Positions 31,089 through 46,181 of a stretch of 64,000 nucleotides of DNA are shown piece by piece. The stretch's first letter is position 1. The number at the start of each line of letters is the position of its first letter. Source of the stretch: Orenia metallireducens (GTDB lineage: Bacteria > Bacillota > Halanaerobiia > Halobacteroidales > Halobacteroidaceae). The DNA lies in assembly GCF_001693735.1 (NCBI RefSeq), contig NZ_LWDV01000009.1, positions 70,629-134,628 on the forward strand, in the 5' to 3' direction. A program made the position numbers and the translations under genes. Below the pieces are notes generated by a model. That model was not told the DNA's origin and searched no databases. It saw only the letters and a list, made by a program, of their open reading frames with translations.

Positions 31089-31502
31089 ATGATGAATAGT
31101 GATTTTGCTCTTGCTGTGCATAGTTTAGTTTTGCTAGTTTATAGTCCTGAAAAGATGGAAACAAGTAAGTCTATGGCAGAGAGTATGAAAGTTCATCCAG
31201 TAAGAGTCAGAAAGATATTGAGTTTATTAAGAAAGAATGGATATATTGAATCTAAAGAGGGAGCTAAAGGTGGTTTTATATTAAAACAATCTGCAGATAA
31301 AATCTCTTTAAATGATATCTATAGATTAACATCTAAGAACACCTTAAAGCCTAAGTGCCATAGTTGTAATTGTGAAATTGGTGCAAATATTGAAGATGTG
31401 TTAGATATTATATTCTATAAAGCTGAAGAGAAGGTAGGAGAGTTTTTAGAAGAGTATACTATCGAAGATATCTTTAATGTATTAAAAAGAGGATGTAAAT
31501 AG
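31089..31502 (+). CDS. Rrf2-family transcriptional regulator
   Basis: 137 aa. Winged helix-turn-helix (SKSMAESMKVHPVRVRKILS, then GGFIL wing) in the first 70 residues; a CHSCNCEIG segment around residue 97 could ligate an Fe-S cluster, though the three-cysteine spacing differs from IscR. Starts ATG 31089 or 31092 behind AAGGGG. Followed at 31512 by a promoter overlapping a palindrome, then a nitroreductase gene, which is its likely target. Confidence 0.88.
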   Translation: MMNSDFALAVHSLVLLVYSPEKMETSKSMAESMKVHPVRVRKILSLLRKNGYIESKEGAKGGFILKQSADKISLNDIYRLTSKNTLKPKCHSCNCEIGANIEDVLDIIFYKAEEKVGEFLEEYTIEDIFNVLKRGCK

Positions 31503-31511
31503 AATTAGTTC

Positions 31512-31546
31512 TTGACAAAAACAAATGTAATAATTATAATTACATT
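31512..31546 (+). promoter_or_regulatory. Consensus promoter overlapped by palindromic operator
   Basis: TTGACA (31512-31517), 17 nt, TATAAT (31535-31540). Across the spacer and -10 lies a palindrome: AATGTAAT (31524-31531), 7 nt, ATTACATT (31539-31546). Binding there would block RNA polymerase. Confidence 0.7.
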
Positions 31547-31550
31547 AGAG

Positions 31551-31597
31551 TTATCCTACTGCCAATGAATTTCTAAAAATAGTAGGATAATATTTTT
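31551..31597 (+). terminator. Hairpin just downstream of the promoter (terminator or attenuator)
   Basis: TTATCCTACT (31551-31560) pairs perfectly with AGTAGGATAA (31581-31590), then TATTTTT. It may end the rrf2 transcript, but because it lies a few bases after the predicted start from the 31512 promoter it would also stop transcripts toward the nitroreductase. Confidence 0.65.
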
Positions 31598-31604
31598 GTT
31601 ATAA

Positions 31605-31625
31605 ATGTAATAAAAAATATTACAT
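31605..31625 (+). promoter_or_regulatory. Second palindromic operator copy
   Basis: ATGTAATA (31605-31612), five A, TATTACAT (31618-31625), the same arms as the operator at 31524. Suggests a dimeric regulator such as the adjacent Rrf2 protein. Confidence 0.6.
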
Positions 31626-31743
31626 ATCTGAGCTAAGATGGAGGTGATTAATCTAGTTTGCTAATAAAGATTTAATAAGCTAGAAATAATAAGAGATTAG
31701 AGTACATAAAAGAATCATAAAGACTAAATAGGGGTGATGAGAA

Positions 31744-32346
31744 GTGGATGTTAAAGAAGCGATTAACCAGAGAAGGAGTACTAGGCATTTTAAATCAGAT
31801 AAATTGAAAGAAGAAGATTTAGGTCTAATCTTAGAAGCTGCCAGATTGGCACCATCAGGTACTAACTTACAACCATGGAGATTTATTGTAGTAGAATCTG
31901 ATAAGATGAGAGAAGAGCTAAGGGGATGCACTTTAGATTTTGTGGCAGATGCTCCTGCTACAATTGTTTGTTGTGTTGATTATAAATCTCTAGAAAGTAT
32001 GACAGATAGAATTCAAGAGTTACAAGAAGTAGGTGCTTTGAAAGGAACATCCTTAGAGAAGCTTGATGCTTCTAAATATAGAGGTCGTAAGATGAGTGAA
32101 GAGGATACTAAAAGATATCTACATTTAAATTTATCTATTGCTATTGAGAATATGATTTTACAAGCAACAGAATTAGGCTTGGGTAGTTGCTGGGTGATGA
32201 TGTTTAATCAGCAGAAATTAGTCGAAGTTTTAGGGTTAGATGATAACATAGAAGCAGTGGCACTATTACCAATAGGCTATTCGGAAGATAAGCCAGCTCC
32301 AAGACCACGTCTCTCTTTAGATGAAATAATTATTGATAGAGTTTAA
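31744..32346 (+). CDS. Nitroreductase-family FMN oxidoreductase
   Basis: 200 aa from GTG 31744 behind AGGGGTGAT. N-terminal INQRRSTRHFKSD and LAPSGTNLQPWRF bind FMN phosphate and ring; the centre has ENMILQATELGLGSCWV and LPIGYSEDKP closes the fold, all typical of NADH-dependent nitroreductases. Substrate unknown. Preceded by two operator palindromes and an attenuator-like hairpin, so tightly regulated. Confidence 0.9.
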   Translation: MDVKEAINQRRSTRHFKSDKLKEEDLGLILEAARLAPSGTNLQPWRFIVVESDKMREELRGCTLDFVADAPATIVCCVDYKSLESMTDRIQELQEVGALKGTSLEKLDASKYRGRKMSEEDTKRYLHLNLSIAIENMILQATELGLGSCWVMMFNQQKLVEVLGLDDNIEAVALLPIGYSEDKPAPRPRLSLDEIIIDRV

Positions 32347-32392: not shown

Positions 32393-33370
32393 TTATTTTA
32401 CTTCAGTAACACCAGTTACTTTACCATTAGATATTTCAAAGCTTTTTTTGTACTCATCTTTAGCAAAGTAGACATTACCTTTAACTGTAGCCTTGTTTAC
32501 ATTAAAGCCATTAGCCTCAACATAAATGTCACCAACAAAGATACCACCTTGGAATCTAGTGTTAGGGCTTTTGATAATCATCTTAGGAGCAGTAATAGTA
32601 AAGCTTTCAGTGATATTGTGATTCTCATCTTGAGTATAAGGAGCGATTTTACGATATACATCATTACTAGCCTTACCTTTATTGTGGAAAGTACCTTCTA
32701 CAACCAACTCTTTATCAAAAGTTAAATCATTTAAAGTAGCAATAATCCACTTACCATCTTTACTAATTGATTTTTTGAAAACTGCCTCATCTGTTATATT
32801 AATAGAAGCAGCAGCTACTACATCTGTATCAGCCTTTACTTCAGTAACACCAGTTACCTCACCATTAGATACTTCAAAGCTTTTTTTGTACTCATCTTTA
32901 GCAAAGTAGATATTACCTTTAACTGTAGCCTTGTTTACATTAAAGCCATTAGCCTCAACATAAATGTCACCAACAAAGATACCACCTTGGAATCTAGTGT
33001 TAGGGCTTTTGATAATCATCTTAGGAGCAGTAATAGTAAAGCTTTCAGTGATATTGTGATTCTCATCTTGAGTATAAGGAGCAATTTTACGATATACATC
33101 ATTACTAGCCTTACCTTTATTGTGGAAAGTACCTTCTACAACCAACTCTTTATCAAAAGTTAAATCATTTAAAGTAGCAATAATCCAAGTACCATCTTTA
33201 CTGATAGCTTTTGTAAAAGCAGCTTCATCACTTACAATCGAAGCTGTTGTTACTGCATCAACATCTTCTTTAGGTTGCCCTTCAGTTGTAGCAGATTGAT
33301 TTCCAGCACACCCTGTTAATACTACAAATGATAATAAGAATATTAGACTTAAACTAAAAAATTTCTTCAT
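32393..33370 (-). CDS. Lipoprotein made of two near-identical ~146-residue repeats
   Basis: 325 aa from the ATG at 33368-33370 (AAGGGGGAAG upstream); a longer frame exists but the methionine followed by a lipoprotein signal (MKKFFSLSLIFLL, lipobox LTGC) is the start. After a short linker come two copies of one domain; the DNA repeat period is 438 nt (for example 32401 and 32839 begin the same sequence). Each copy has KDGTWIIATLNDLTFDKEL and VVEGTFHNKG, and a region with spaced valine/asparagine strands suggesting a beta-solenoid. Not recognised; a cell-surface protein. Near-identity of the copies implies recent duplication. Confidence 0.75.
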   Translation of the reverse strand: MKKFFSLSLIFLLSFVVLTGCAGNQSATTEGQPKEDVDAVTTASIVSDEAAFTKAISKDGTWIIATLNDLTFDKELVVEGTFHNKGKASNDVYRKIAPYTQDENHNITESFTITAPKMIIKSPNTRFQGGIFVGDIYVEANGFNVNKATVKGNIYFAKDEYKKSFEVSNGEVTGVTEVKADTDVVAAASINITDEAVFKKSISKDGKWIIATLNDLTFDKELVVEGTFHNKGKASNDVYRKIAPYTQDENHNITESFTITAPKMIIKSPNTRFQGGIFVGDIYVEANGFNVNKATVKGNVYFAKDEYKKSFEISNGKVTGVTEVK

Positions 33371-33624: not shown

Positions 33625-35427
33625 TTAAGCTGCAATTTTTTTATCATAATTTACTGGCTTTTTAGATAGGTTGAACAACCAGGGAATTAAATAATAATCT
33701 AGACCGAAGGCTTTACCAGCACCAGAAAGCATAGTTAAAGAGATTAAGAATAACCAGACTGGCTCCCAGATTCCTGCTTCTGAACCTAAAGCACCAATGA
33801 TAAAGTTGGCACTCATACCCATTGCTGCAAGCCCTCCTAAGACTGTTAAGCAACCAAAAATTAAACTAAGCCCTACACCTAATTCGGTAAGAACAAGTAT
33901 TTTTTGGAATAGTACTTGATTTGGAACAACAAAGGTCTTCATTAAATCAATATAGATTTGAGGTGTACCTTCACTCCATAAGATTGAAGAGGCTCCAGAA
34001 ACAAGTTGTCCTTCAGATCCAGTTAACCAACCCTCTTGTACTTTATGGATACCTTCTATTAAGAACCTTAATCCTAAGAAGATTCTTAAGATAGCTAACC
34101 AGTAAGTACCTGACTTTTTAGAGAAGTGTCTTACTAGCATTCCAATACCTCCTTTAACATCAGTAAATTGATGTTCAATATATTCCCAAATCAAACTCAA
34201 ACCATTAACTTCAAATAAATAATGCATATTAACCAGATGCTTGGTTATCATTGCTAAAAATCCTGACATTGGAAGAGTCAATTTTGGAGTAGGTTTAAGT
34301 TCTGCTACAGCATAATTAGCCCCTATAGAGACCATTACTCCATGTAACTGTGGTTTAAACTCCTTTAACTCTTTGCCAGTAATCTCTGCATAAATATTAT
34401 TGGCAACAGATTTACCTGCTTGTACAGCAGCTTCAACTAATTGGGGCATAACCCAGTTATCTTCAGTTTCAAAGTAGGTATTATCTCCAATAGCATAGAT
34501 GTTCTTAATAGATGTTTGTAGATAATTATTTACTTCAATCCTATCGCGATGATTTAATTTTAAACCTAATTTCTTTACAAATTCCTTAGCTTTAACTCCA
34601 CCAGTCCAGATTAGAGTTTTGGTCCTAATTTTTGATTCTTCCGCTTGTGGGGCATCAATAATATGACTACCTTCTAGTTGACAACTATTAATAGTTACGC
34701 CATCTTCTTCTACTTTACAGATGGTAGAATCTAGAAGAATTTCTACACCAAGCTCTTCTTTAAGGTATCTTTCTGCCTTAGCAATACGCTTCTTACTTAG
34801 TACAGGCAGAATCTTATCCATAGCCTCGATAACTTTAATGCTAACTTCTTCTCTTGGGATATTATATAACTTACATAAATCATTTGCCCATTCGGCAATC
34901 TCACCAACTGTTTCTATTCCTGTAAAGCCACCACCACCGACAGTAAAGGTTAATAGTTCTTTACGCTTATCGATATTCTTCTCTTGAGAAGCTAAACTGA
35001 ACATGGTGCGAATATGTCCGTTAATTCTTTTAGCATCCTCCAAAGACCAAAGGTCAAAAGCATGTTCCTCCATGCCAGGAATATTAAAGTATGTTGGCTC
35101 ACTACCTACTGCTAAGATCAAATAATCATAGCTATATATAGCTTCTTGAGATAGCAACTGTTGTTTGTCAGTATCGATATTGATAATTTTATCTTGAACT
35201 AGATTAACTTTAGTGTTGTCAAAGACATCAGTTAAGGAGACTTTTACTCCATTGCTATCGATTCTATTACCAGCAACTTCATGTAACTCAGTTAATAAAA
35301 TATGATGTTGATGCTGGTCAATTAAAGTAATCTCAATAGAATCATTCTTTTTAAACTTCTTATTAAGGGTTTTAGCAGCCTTAATACCAGCATAACCAGC
35401 TCCTAGAATAACAATCTTCTCATTCAT
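33625..35427 (-). CDS. ndh2: Type II NADH:quinone dehydrogenase fused to a DoxX-like membrane domain
   Basis: 600 aa. N-terminal FAD site (ILGAGYAGIKAAKTL), NAD site (VGGGGFTGIETVGE) and C-terminal FAD contact (NIYAIGDNTYF, MPQLVEAAVQAG) make a complete NDH-2 of about 430 residues. Residues ~445-590 add a four-helix segment (RIFLGLRFLIEGIHKVQEGW, TELGVGLSLIFGCLTVLGG) like DoxX, not present in ordinary NDH-2. Listeria Ndh2 of the extracellular electron transfer system also has an extra C-terminal membrane domain. Ribosome site GGAGGGAAGAG precedes the start. Divergent from apbE. Confidence 0.88.
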   Translation of the reverse strand: MNEKIVILGAGYAGIKAAKTLNKKFKKNDSIEITLIDQHQHHILLTELHEVAGNRIDSNGVKVSLTDVFDNTKVNLVQDKIINIDTDKQQLLSQEAIYSYDYLILAVGSEPTYFNIPGMEEHAFDLWSLEDAKRINGHIRTMFSLASQEKNIDKRKELLTFTVGGGGFTGIETVGEIAEWANDLCKLYNIPREEVSIKVIEAMDKILPVLSKKRIAKAERYLKEELGVEILLDSTICKVEEDGVTINSCQLEGSHIIDAPQAEESKIRTKTLIWTGGVKAKEFVKKLGLKLNHRDRIEVNNYLQTSIKNIYAIGDNTYFETEDNWVMPQLVEAAVQAGKSVANNIYAEITGKELKEFKPQLHGVMVSIGANYAVAELKPTPKLTLPMSGFLAMITKHLVNMHYLFEVNGLSLIWEYIEHQFTDVKGGIGMLVRHFSKKSGTYWLAILRIFLGLRFLIEGIHKVQEGWLTGSEGQLVSGASSILWSEGTPQIYIDLMKTFVVPNQVLFQKILVLTELGVGLSLIFGCLTVLGGLAAMGMSANFIIGALGSEAGIWEPVWLFLISLTMLSGAGKAFGLDYYLIPWLFNLSKKPVNYDKKIAA

Positions 35428-35701
35428 CTCTTCCCTCCTTTAAACAAGATTATAAGATTTTAAGAGAATGTATTTATTCTCTATTAAGTATATTTCGCTG
35501 ATAATTTTATAATTCCTTTATAGTTTTATAAAACATTATGATTTTTGCAGGATAAAAGTAATTAAAAATAGAACTGATTTAATAATAATTCTAAGATGAT
35601 ATGTGAAGCAATGCACTAATTATCAAAAATTGGCGTGGTCATATAAATTCTATTTTCAATAAGTATTGAGGAGGTATTAATGGTTTTTAGTAAAAACAGA
35701 A

Positions 35702-35760
35702 AATGATTATCATTACTATATTCCATTCAATATGTTAACATAGGTAATTGTTTGTGTCAA
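35702..35760 (-). promoter_or_regulatory. Minus-strand promoter of ndh2 with Fur box
   Basis: On the minus strand TTGACA (35760-35755) and a -10-like TAACAT (35737-35732) are 17 nt apart. Just downstream AATGATTATCATT (35702-35714) is a perfect 6-1-6 palindrome of Fur-box type. The leader to ndh2 is about 290 nt. Confidence 0.5.
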
Positions 35761-35787
35761 TAATATTTTAATCACTGTTAAAAGTAA

Positions 35788-35844
35788 TTGACAAGAGAAA
35801 TGGTTTTTGATAAACTTTGGAAATGATAATAATTCTTATTTTCC
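35788..35844 (+). promoter_or_regulatory. Promoter toward apbE with Fur-like palindrome
   Basis: TTGACA (35788-35793), 17 nt, TAAACT (35811-35816). The predicted start site overlaps an imperfect palindrome GGAAATGATAATAATTC (35819-35835) continuing TTATTTTCC to 35844. A Fur-like site is probable. The remainder of 35845-36021 shows nothing further. Confidence 0.5.
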
Positions 35845-36021
35845 TAAGCGTTAGGATTTATTAAAATCATTCCTATAATGTAAGATTATTGATAATCTTA
35901 TATGACAGTATATTTAAATTTTACTCTAAAGTTGGATGACTATAATCGATTATGAGCTTAGCATTCTATTTATTGAATTAACTCATTTTGGGTTTTATTC
36001 ATAAAATTTTAAAAAGGATAT

Positions 36022-37080
36022 GTGGTGATAAAAGTGAAATTAAATAAGGAAAGATCTTTTAAAGCTGTTTGCTTTATGTTATTGATAAGTATAACTTTAT
36101 TAGGGTGTTCAGCTAAAAATGAAGATTCTAGTTTTAAAAGTGATTATAAGATGGGAACGATAGTTCAACTGAAGGTTTATGGTGCAGGTGTAGAGAGTAC
36201 AGTTGAAGAAGCCTTTACTTTAATAGATGAGTTAGAGCAGAAGATGAGCTTAAATATTAAAGGTAGTGAAATTAATCAAGTCAACAACTCTGCTGGTAAG
36301 AAAGGTGTAGAAGTAAGTATTGATACCTATCGAGTAATTGATAGAGCTTTAAATTATGCTAAGTTAAGCCAAGGGTACTTTGATCCTACTATCGGTCCAG
36401 TCGTTAAATTATGGGGGATAGGTAGTGAAGAACAGCAGATTCCTTCTAAAGATGAATTGGCAGATAAGTTGAAGTTAGTAAATTATAAGCAAGTAAAACT
36501 GAATCCTGAAATTAAAAGTATTAGCCTAGCAACAGCAGGTATGATTTTAGATGTAGGTGGGATTGCTAAAGGTTATGCTGCTGATAAGGTAATTGAACTA
36601 TTAAAGGGTCAGGGAGTAAAGAGTGCTTATATCAGTCTTGGTGGGAATGTATCTGTCTTAGGTGCCAAACCTGATGGTTCTGATTGGAAGGTAGGGATTC
36701 AAGATCCTAAGGCTAAAACCCGTGGTGAAATAATAGGTATTGTAAATGTAAAGGATAAGACTGTGGTTACTTCTGGTAATTATGAACGTTATTTTATTGA
36801 AGATGGAGTTAGATATCACCATATTTTAAATCCACAGACCGGTTATCCAGCTAGAAATGGAGTTATTAGTGCTACTATTGTAGCTAAAAGCTCCTTTGAT
36901 GCTGATGCGTTATCTACGGCTGTCTATATTCTAGGAGTAGAACAGGGATTACAATTGGTTAATACATTAGATGGTGTAGAGGCAATCTTGATTACTGAAG
37001 ATGATCAAATCTATGTTACAGATAAATTGAAGGATAAGTTTAAAATCACTAAAGAGAATAAATATAGCTTAATAAATTAA
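36022..37080 (+). CDS. apbE: ApbE/FmnB-type FAD:protein FMN transferase lipoprotein
   Basis: 352 aa. Lipoprotein signal with lipobox LLGC near residue 29. ApbE domain with GGIAKGYAADKVIELL, SLGGNVSVLGAKPDG and HHILNPQTGYPARNG, and the metal-binding aspartate near DADALSTAVY. It attaches FMN to threonine of exported proteins. Start could be GTG 36022, 36025 or 36034; AAGGA and GGTGAT both lie close. The pairing with NDH-2 and a prenyl synthase points to extracellular electron transfer or a flavinylated respiratory system. Confidence 0.92.
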   Translation: MVIKVKLNKERSFKAVCFMLLISITLLGCSAKNEDSSFKSDYKMGTIVQLKVYGAGVESTVEEAFTLIDELEQKMSLNIKGSEINQVNNSAGKKGVEVSIDTYRVIDRALNYAKLSQGYFDPTIGPVVKLWGIGSEEQQIPSKDELADKLKLVNYKQVKLNPEIKSISLATAGMILDVGGIAKGYAADKVIELLKGQGVKSAYISLGGNVSVLGAKPDGSDWKVGIQDPKAKTRGEIIGIVNVKDKTVVTSGNYERYFIEDGVRYHHILNPQTGYPARNGVISATIVAKSSFDADALSTAVYILGVEQGLQLVNTLDGVEAILITEDDQIYVTDKLKDKFKITKENKYSLIN

Positions 37081-37120
37081 GGATTAGTATCTCTAAATTA
37101 TTTAAAGTAGGTGATGTGGA

Positions 37121-38077
37121 GTGTTTTGGGATAGATTCCCCCTTATTAAAGAAGAGGTAGTTCAATTTGAAGATTATTTACAAGGGACTTTAGTCAGTAG
37201 GCAGCCCTTGATTCAAGAAGCTATTTCAGATTTGGCTAAATCAGGTGGTAAGAGAATTAGACCAGCTTTATTGATGTTAACAGCCAAATTTGGTGAATAT
37301 AAGAGAGAAGAGGTATGGTCATTAGCGGCTGCTTTAGAGATTTTGCATATGGCAACTTTAATCCATGATGATATTATAGATGATGCTAATTTACGGCGTG
37401 GATCTGAAACTGTACAATCTAAATATGGTAAGGATGTAGCTGTCTTTGCTGGAGATTATCTCTTTACTTTGACCTTTGATATCTTAGCAGGAGAAGCTAC
37501 AAATGAACAGCTAAAGCAAGTGTCTAATATAATTAAGCAAATTTGTGAAGGTGAGATTCAACAGCATCAAGATAGATATAATATAGATGTAACTTATAAA
37601 GGTTATTTTAAAAGGGTTAAGAGTAAGACTGCACTATTATTTGAAGGAAGCTGTGCTTTAGGAGCAGGTAGTGCAGGTCTACCTAAGGCAACAGTTAGAA
37701 ACCTTGGTCATTATGGGCGTTATATAGGAATGGCCTTCCAACTAGTGGATGACCTCTTTGACTTTACTAAAAGTAGTAGTAGTATTGGTAAGCCGAAAGG
37801 AAATGATTTTACCCAAGGTATCTATACCTTACCAATCTTATATACCCTTTATGAAAGTAGCTATGGCGAGAAGTTGGCAGAGTTATTAGATAATCCATTA
37901 GAGAATAATCAAGAAATTAAAGATATTATAACAAATAATGGTTCTTTAGATTATACCATGAAGGTAGCCAAAACCTATATCAATAAGGCTAAAAAGAAGA
38001 TTAAAGGTTTAGCAGGTAATCCTTATCATCAGATATTGATAGACTTGGCTGATATAGTTGTAAATAGAGATTATTAA
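37121..38077 (+). CDS. Polyprenyl diphosphate synthase (HepT/DmkB-like)
   Basis: 318 aa from GTG 37121. Trans-prenyltransferase fold with first aspartate motif LIHDDIIDDANLRRG and second LVDDLFDF; GGKRIRPALLML binds pyrophosphate. Length and small residues upstream of the first motif suggest a long-chain (menaquinone side-chain) product. Follows apbE by 40 nt on the same strand. In Listeria a similar enzyme (DmkB) feeds the quinone used for extracellular electron transfer. Confidence 0.9.
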   Translation: MFWDRFPLIKEEVVQFEDYLQGTLVSRQPLIQEAISDLAKSGGKRIRPALLMLTAKFGEYKREEVWSLAAALEILHMATLIHDDIIDDANLRRGSETVQSKYGKDVAVFAGDYLFTLTFDILAGEATNEQLKQVSNIIKQICEGEIQQHQDRYNIDVTYKGYFKRVKSKTALLFEGSCALGAGSAGLPKATVRNLGHYGRYIGMAFQLVDDLFDFTKSSSSIGKPKGNDFTQGIYTLPILYTLYESSYGEKLAELLDNPLENNQEIKDIITNNGSLDYTMKVAKTYINKAKKKIKGLAGNPYHQILIDLADIVVNRDY

Positions 38078-38266: not shown

Positions 38267-39923
<1,657 letters not shown>

Positions 39924-45583: not shown

Positions 45584-46162
45584 ATTCAAATAATTATTTT
45601 AATTAGAGATATAGAGCAAAGCATGTTTTGCTGTAATTGTTGATTATTAGCTAATAATCAATTTAGCCCAAGACTACTTCCTTATCCTTTTTCCTTTAGG
45701 TCATGTGGTTAATAATTAATTAAAGTATCATACGCGTTAACTTAAGCTGAATTTTGACAATTGGTTAACGGAATATTATATTCAATTAACCTTTCAACAC
45801 TTATTTTTTCTTATGTTTTTCATATAAACTAGCTTCTGCAATTCTTTTAAAGAAAAAATAAGTTCTTTAATATTAGGAATCATGAAAATTAAAATCTCGG
45901 TAACTTTTGTACTTTCATCAGACAATAATTTTATAAAAAGTAGGTTCAACAACGAACTTTGTGATTAAGAATAGTAATGGGCTAAATTTAAGTTATGAGT
46001 TAGCTACAGATTTTCAAATTATGATAATACCAGAGTTTAAAACCTGTGGATAAAAGGTTATTTACAATTTCAAAAATATATTTTCATAAAAGTTGTGGAA
46101 GGACCCAAATTGCTCATAAAATTTACATAGTTTCAGTAGAAACATTTAGCATACGAGCAATA

Positions 46163-46181
46163 GATAATGATTATCATTCAT
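46163..46181. promoter_or_regulatory. Isolated Fur box in a 764-nt gene-free stretch
   Basis: GATAATGATTATCATTCAT matches the classical 19-bp Fur box (GATAATGATAATCATTATC) at most positions. A TTGACA at 46197 with TATCCT 17 nt on could be a promoter toward the ferredoxin. The rest of 45584-46330 has no supportable gene and may contain eroded sequence. Confidence 0.6.

Follow-up and report, generated by a model that had tools for sequence, protein, structure and literature searches.

The 64 kb stretch of the genome of the halophilic, fermentative bacterium Orenia metallireducens analysed here (the window; contig C9, positions 70629 to 134628) contains an ndh2-apbE-dmkB locus that resembles the flavin-based extracellular electron transfer (FLEET, or EET) system of Listeria monocytogenes. 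The genome comprises 3.47 Mb on 12 contigs, and beyond the window it was read as chosen families and stretches only. Three genes make up the locus:

33625-35427, reverse strand: ndh2, encoding a protein of 600 residues (Pfam Pyr_redox_2 and DoxD/DoxX), with an NDH-2 domain at approximately residues 1-420 followed by a C-terminal four-helix DoxX-type membrane domain
36022-37080, forward strand: apbE/fmnB, encoding a lipoprotein flavin adenine dinucleotide (FAD):protein flavin mononucleotide (FMN) transferase (PF02424, 329 bits; lipobox LLGC)
37121-38077, forward strand: dmkB-like gene for a polyprenyl diphosphate synthase (PF00348, 225 bits)

NCBIfam and Pfam agree on the identities of all three genes, and their equivalence to Listeria ndh2, fmnB and dmkB, proposed in a preliminary description of this DNA, is borne out by alignment. 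Ndh2 matches its Listeria counterpart with 34% identity from residue 1 to 584 of 600, covering 97% of its length and including the extra C-terminal domain (E 7e-123). The best solved relative of residues 4-414 is a bacterial NDH-2 (PDB 4nwz), and the AlphaFold2 model of the protein, with a mean predicted local distance difference test score (pLDDT) of 87, has helices at residues 440-464, 504-524, 528-546, and 554-568. At residues 331-336 (window 34420-34437) the Ndh2 family carries VExAxQ where 4nwz, a typical bacterial NDH-2, has AQxAxQ, with a nearly invariant Glu replacing Gln (LVEAAVQ in the window, TAQIAIQ in 4nwz). ApbE is 43% identical to Listeria FmnB, the structure of which (PDB 7esa) is its best PDB match, and the Ser, His, and Asp motifs are retained in the alignment. 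The polyprenyl synthase is 37% identical to Listeria DmkB.

The preliminary description considered the locus a partial flavin-based EET module, with no PplA, EetA, EetB, or DmkA in view. These absences hold for the window and the EET reading is supported, but counterparts of DmkA and EetB and candidates for EetA and PplA are encoded elsewhere in the genome, spread over contigs C8, C9, and C10 and not in one locus, so that the system is better described as dispersed than as partial. DmkA is the only UbiA protein of the genome (C9, 185.7 kb); it scores above the NCBIfam cut-offs for 1,4-dihydroxy-2-naphthoate (DHNA) polyprenyltransferase, and is 42-45% identical to Listeria DmkA and 54% identical to the DmkA encoded in a compact Clostridium folliculivorans EET locus. 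An EetB-type protein (PF07456, 139.5 bits; 38% identity to Listeria EetB) is encoded a few kilobases from rnfCDGEAB; in Listeria, EetB is the FAD exporter subunit required for flavinylation. The single NusG_II protein (C8, 425.9 kb) is EetA-like, although its match to Listeria EetA is marginal (21% identity, E 7e-4).

Three proteins of the genome carry FMN_bind domains. In addition to RnfG, there is a small lipoprotein with a DVISGAT motif, the gene for which lies between two flavodoxin-domain genes (L006:4629-6102), and an exported two-domain protein of 226 residues with the sites DLIAGAT and DIVSGAT. This double FMN_bind protein, the nearest equivalent of PplA, has no lipobox and aligns with Listeria PplA over a short segment only. 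ApbE occurs in a single copy and must therefore also serve the Rnf complex. The preliminary description had raised the concerns that the genome might lack an exported flavinylated protein and that apbE might serve Rnf alone. Neither is borne out: exported FMN_bind proteins exist besides RnfG, and therefore the single ApbE very probably has substrates beyond Rnf. RnfD of this genome has the sequence DVTSSAT, which indicates that Ser can occupy the Gly position of a likely substrate.

The arrangement of the locus is conserved in relatives. An apbE-dmkB pair stands next to ndh2 in all four family relatives that have ndh2: Orenia metallireducens MSL40 (G012), a third Orenia genome (G011), Halanaerobacter jeridensis (G006), and another member of the Halobacteroidaceae (G007). 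Behind ndh2, dmkA and then a lipoprotein gene follow in Halanaerobacter and G011, while the lipoprotein gene alone follows in the window and in G012. The G007 locus additionally includes an EetB-like gene and a gene for a PplA-like lipoprotein (best NCBIfam match lipo_FMN_PplA, below cut-off), and an IS701 transposase lies between apbE and ndh2. Linkage of ndh2, apbE, and dmkB extends to many Clostridia: among 50 loci with full flanks, from a set of 80 named genomes, apbE is found within 9 kb of ndh2 in 33, a dmkB-like gene in 42, an eetB-like gene in 29, and an FMN_bind gene in 23.

The double FMN_bind gene links the pathway to iron uptake. It closes a run of genes for FTR1, P19 (PF10634), FtrD (PF10080), two FtsX-like permeases, and an ABC ATPase. 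A Fur-family gene, one of three in the genome, lies upstream of this run, and feoAB lies downstream. Clusters of this kind, with FTR1, P19, FtrD, two FtsX permeases, an ABC ATPase, and an FMN_bind gene in one region, have been described previously, with the suggestion that the genes for the electron-transfer proteins presumably lie elsewhere (Meheust et al. 2021, PMC8238504). The present case differs in that the ndh2-apbE-dmkB locus, with its Fur-type boxes, offers a concrete candidate for the electron input. In an uncultured Halanaerobiales genome (L096), a homologue of the double FMN_bind protein with 44% identity is encoded between apbE and ndh2, an arrangement that ties together the P19 operon and the ndh2 locus of the window's genome.

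The intergenic region between ndh2 and apbE contains two divergent promoter-like sequences, found by consensus scan, and two Fur-type boxes, found by matrix scan and consensus search:

35760-35732, reverse strand: TTGACA-17-TAACAT, directed towards ndh2
35695-35717, reverse strand: Fur-type box just downstream of the ndh2 promoter
35788-35816, forward strand: TTGACA-17-TAAACT, directed towards apbE-dmkB
35821-35841, forward strand: Fur-type box just downstream of the apbE promoter

Divergent promoters with Fur-type palindromes had been noted before, and both are present, with each box located downstream of the second hexamer. Fur-type boxes are also found at the P19 and feo operons of the same genome. 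When the eight boxes in the P19 and feoAB promoters served as the sole training set for a weight matrix, the two intergenic boxes came 3rd, 6th, and 7th in a ranking of every 19-mer in the 64 kb, both strands included. The 19-bp E. coli-type Fur consensus matches at 35699 with 3 mismatches; two such matches occur in the window, against 0.12 expected, the other being at 46163. The best-ranked box of the window, at 46161-46181, lies ~170 bases upstream of a ferredoxin-like gene (start ~46349, two 4Fe-4S motifs). Halanaerobacter has one palindrome near ndh2. A Fur footprint conserved across Orenia was considered and rejected, as the boxes were not found in G012 or G011. Therefore, the Fur-like control proposed in the preliminary description is likely for this strain, where its sequence support is good, but is not a feature of the genus. 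A riboswitch in the long 5′ leaders was considered and rejected, as the window gave no Rfam match.

The extra membrane domain of Ndh2 contains a motif that the preliminary description did not mention, as it did not mention the dispersal of the pathway or its tie to the P19 operon. Known ApbE substrates carry the motif D-x-x-[S/T]-G-A-[S/T]. We compared the loop that joins the first two membrane helices of the DoxX domain in 85 Ndh2 homologues, where it spans 44 to 130 residues, with 1000 composition-preserving shuffles of the loops; the strict motif was taken from the literature, and the relaxed forms were picked after the loops had been seen. The strict form D..[ST]GA[ST] occurs in 20 of the 85 loops (shuffled mean 0.1), [ST]GA[ST] in 35 (shuffled 1.2, largest 6), and D..[ST][GSA]A[ST] in 49 (shuffled 0.2, largest 3); this last form is also present in 22 of the 40 representatives that share less than 65% identity. 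When the pattern is loosened further, 80 of the 85 loops match, that of Listeria among them. Despite the variable loop length, sequences such as DAVSGASQ, DATSGASA, DVTSGASL, DGTTGASL, DATSSASI, and DAVSAATE recur, and in none of the 85 homologues does D..[ST][GSA]A[ST] occur outside the loop. Several D-x-x-S-x-A-S-type copies are found in some loops (L117, L125, L111, L090, and L100), which could mean several flavins per protein. In the window, the corresponding feature is:

33985-33999, reverse strand: codons for S477-G-A-S-S481 of Ndh2, a predicted ApbE flavinylation site with S480 as the acceptor, invariant in five Halobacteroidaceae Ndh2 proteins

In the AlphaFold2 model, this motif lies in a flexible loop that follows the first membrane helix past the NDH-2 domain, on the side opposite from that domain. 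With the NADH (reduced nicotinamide adenine dinucleotide) domain in the cytosol and one membrane helix before the loop, the loop would be outside the cell. Because the motif is found far above its frequency in the shuffled loops, Ndh2 itself is predicted to be flavinylated. We consider the chances about even that Ndh2 of Gram-positive EET systems is an ApbE substrate with covalent FMN, possibly several, in the outer DoxX loop, and that the lipoprotein encoded behind ndh2 may be a second substrate, replacing PplA in Halanaerobacter and Orenia. If so, one protein would span from cytosolic NADH to a flavin outside the cell. The prediction of a flavinylated Ndh2 extends beyond this genome.

It is possible, though we think it somewhat doubtful, that this Ala/Ser/Thr-rich loop is instead a structural or glycosylated linker with an accidental likeness to the ApbE motif. 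The loops are of low complexity and variable length, and the Asp is missing from both the window version (QLVSGASS, residues 474-481) and the Listeria version (ATSGASQ). We found no report of a flavinylated Ndh2 in the literature searched, which mostly left out subscription papers. However, the excess of the strict motif and of [ST]GA[ST] over shuffled loops and the absence of the relaxed Asp-containing motif from the cytosolic part speak against accident, and changing the Asp of an ApbE motif to Ala has been reported to have only minor effects on flavinylation. The five loops that fail the looser form also bear on this question. Two have SGSS (L113 and L116), one has DTVGAAT (L164), and two have nothing similar (L112 and L118). 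The latter two paralogues belong to orphan loci, the 9 kb around them holding none of the EET genes searched for, and their lack of the motif also speaks against accident, but a third full-flank locus without such genes (L128) still has the variant DAVTNAT, so that the correspondence between motif loss and orphan loci is suggestive but incomplete. Stand-alone DoxX proteins from plasmids, intended as a control set, provided only one weak non-Ndh2 match.

Together, these observations suggest a dispersed Listeria-type flavin EET system that is tied to P19 iron uptake and serves Fe(III) reduction, an interpretation that we regard as likely. In this system, Ndh2 would oxidize cytosolic NADH and deliver the electrons to the membrane, where the acceptor is probably demethylmenaquinone, synthesized by DmkB of the window and DmkA (C9, 185 kb) from DHNA that the cell scavenges. 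The EetB-type exporter beside rnf would supply FAD to ApbE, which would attach FMN to proteins on the outer surface: the double FMN_bind protein of the FTR1-P19 operon, the small FMN_bind lipoprotein, RnfG, RnfD, and the predicted site in the DoxX loop of Ndh2. The surface flavins could then reduce Fe(III) outside the cell, with the Fur-type boxes turning the locus on under iron shortage in this strain. Given these boxes, the locus would from day to day most likely serve iron acquisition through P19/FTR1, and secondarily the disposal of fermentation electrons onto Fe(III). The sequence itself shows the gene identities, the single-copy ApbE, the presence of the other parts, the boxes and promoters, and the conservation of the motif, whereas the electron path, the quinone source, Fur binding, flavinylation of Ndh2, and the physiological role are inferred. 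A role in Fe(III) reduction agrees with the biology of the genus, in which strain Z6 of O. metallireducens has been documented to reduce Fe(III). A 2014 study described the iron-reduction mechanisms of Firmicutes as poorly understood, and a 2026 paper attributed the activity of Z6 to fermentation. The locus and its dispersed partners provide a specific set of genes to which Fe(III) reduction in Orenia may be ascribed, and a named candidate for the electron supply of FMN-carrying P19 iron uptake.

The proposed system shares with the FLEET/EET systems of Listeria monocytogenes and lactic acid bacteria an Ndh2 with the same C-terminal domain, a lipoprotein FmnB/ApbE, DmkB, DmkA, and EetB homologues. 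It differs from them in that its genes are dispersed, EetB is encoded beside rnf, Fur-type boxes are present, an extra two-repeat lipoprotein is encoded behind ndh2, and PplA would be replaced by the non-lipoprotein double FMN_bind protein of the P19 operon. In Lactiplantibacillus plantarum, PplA is dispensable for flavin-dependent iron reduction. Two points that concern the Listeria-type pathway as a whole thus come within reach of direct tests: the function of the extra membrane domain of Ndh2, and the way in which electrons are exported where PplA is absent or dispensable.

Several observations weigh against this interpretation. The genes are dispersed, so that physical linkage does not prove a single pathway; the protein nearest to PplA is no lipoprotein, and its alignment with Listeria PplA is poor; and the similarity to EetA is marginal. 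Halanaerobacter retains the locus, yet RnfG is its sole FMN_bind protein. The pair of Fur-type boxes is missing from the 300-base intergenic region of G012 and from G011. The quinone source is also assumed: the genome gave no match to MqnA and only weak thiamine-enzyme matches to MenD, the best with 58 bits against a cut-off of 244. Endogenous menaquinone was rejected on the basis of these two enzymes, the only ones examined. With DmkA and DmkB present, the precursor is probably scavenged, as in L. plantarum, which is reported to have no complete endogenous quinone pathway and requires exogenous DHNA. In two relatives without ndh2 (G009 and G010; L079 and L080), MenD is above the cut-off and a UbiA gene lies ~2 kb away; menaquinone synthesis thus probably occurs within the family, though only in members other than those with ndh2. 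In favour of the proposed system, cytochrome bd, considered as an acceptor for Ndh2, is absent from all 13 genomes of the order, and therefore there is no bd oxidase for Ndh2 to feed.

A purely assimilatory Fe(III) reductase, in which Ndh2, DmkB, and ApbE feed electrons and FMN to P19/FTR1 uptake alone with no electron-sink role, would fit the Fur-type boxes, which are found at both promoters of the locus as well as at the P19 and feo operons, the position of an FMN_bind gene as the last of the P19 operon, and the published association of P19 with FMN_bind genes (PMC8238504). We consider this explanation unlikely: other Orenia do not conserve the boxes, Halanaerobacter and G007 retain ndh2-apbE-dmkB without a double FMN_bind protein of the P19 type, and O. 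metallireducens reduces Fe(III) in bulk.

Least probable, and in our view rather remote, is that ApbE serves Rnf only, with Ndh2 and the prenyl synthase forming a separate NADH:quinone or NADH oxidoreductase for redox balance in a neighbourhood of historical origin; rnfCDGEAB is present, a single ApbE is found in each genome of the order, whether or not ndh2 is there, RnfG stands alone among FMN_bind proteins in Halanaerobacter, and EetB homologues are commonly encoded beside rnf in Clostridia, but in the window's genome two more exported FMN_bind proteins carry canonical DxxSGAT/AGAT motifs, apbE in Orenia and Halanaerobacter is linked to ndh2 and dmkB rather than to rnf (and is no more than 9 kb from ndh2 in the 33 of 50 loci noted above), and the Ndh2 loop carries an ApbE-type motif. 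The Rnf complex resembles the dispersed EET system in using ApbE-flavinylated RnfG and RnfD, both present with the same ApbE, but Ndh2 is unrelated to it and the window locus is not linked to rnf.

The gene directly downstream of ndh2, identified by synteny, and a motif in its product, identified from an alignment of five homologues, are as follows:

32393-33370, reverse strand: two-repeat surface lipoprotein
33239-33259, reverse strand: codons for D-A-V-T-T-A-S in the lipoprotein linker, resembling the ApbE motif

Homologues of this lipoprotein are encoded close to ndh2 in Orenia and Halanaerobacter, and likewise in the EET loci of two Clostridium species. The structural model shows two beta-solenoid repeats and a disordered N-terminal linker. 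No curated family in Pfam or NCBIfam matched at cut-off, and a known fold was rejected, with no PDB match at E<=0.001 and beta-solenoid look-alikes only. Within the linker sequence D-x-V-x-x-A-S, with which the repeats begin, the Asp, Val, Ala, and Ser are invariant among the five homologues. The lipoprotein may likewise receive a flavin from ApbE, or it may bind an acceptor, although the case is weaker than for Ndh2.

Two neighbouring regions complete the surroundings of the locus. A gene pair for an Rrf2-family regulator and a nitroreductase (window 31089-32346) lies near ndh2 and is retained in both other Orenia genomes. On the other side, a glycoside hydrolase gene (window 38325-39921) is split between two alternating frames; the frame shifts near 38672 and reverts near 38922-38967. 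The same gene is intact in O. metallireducens G012 (545 residues), and the window copy is either a pseudogene or the result of a sequencing error.

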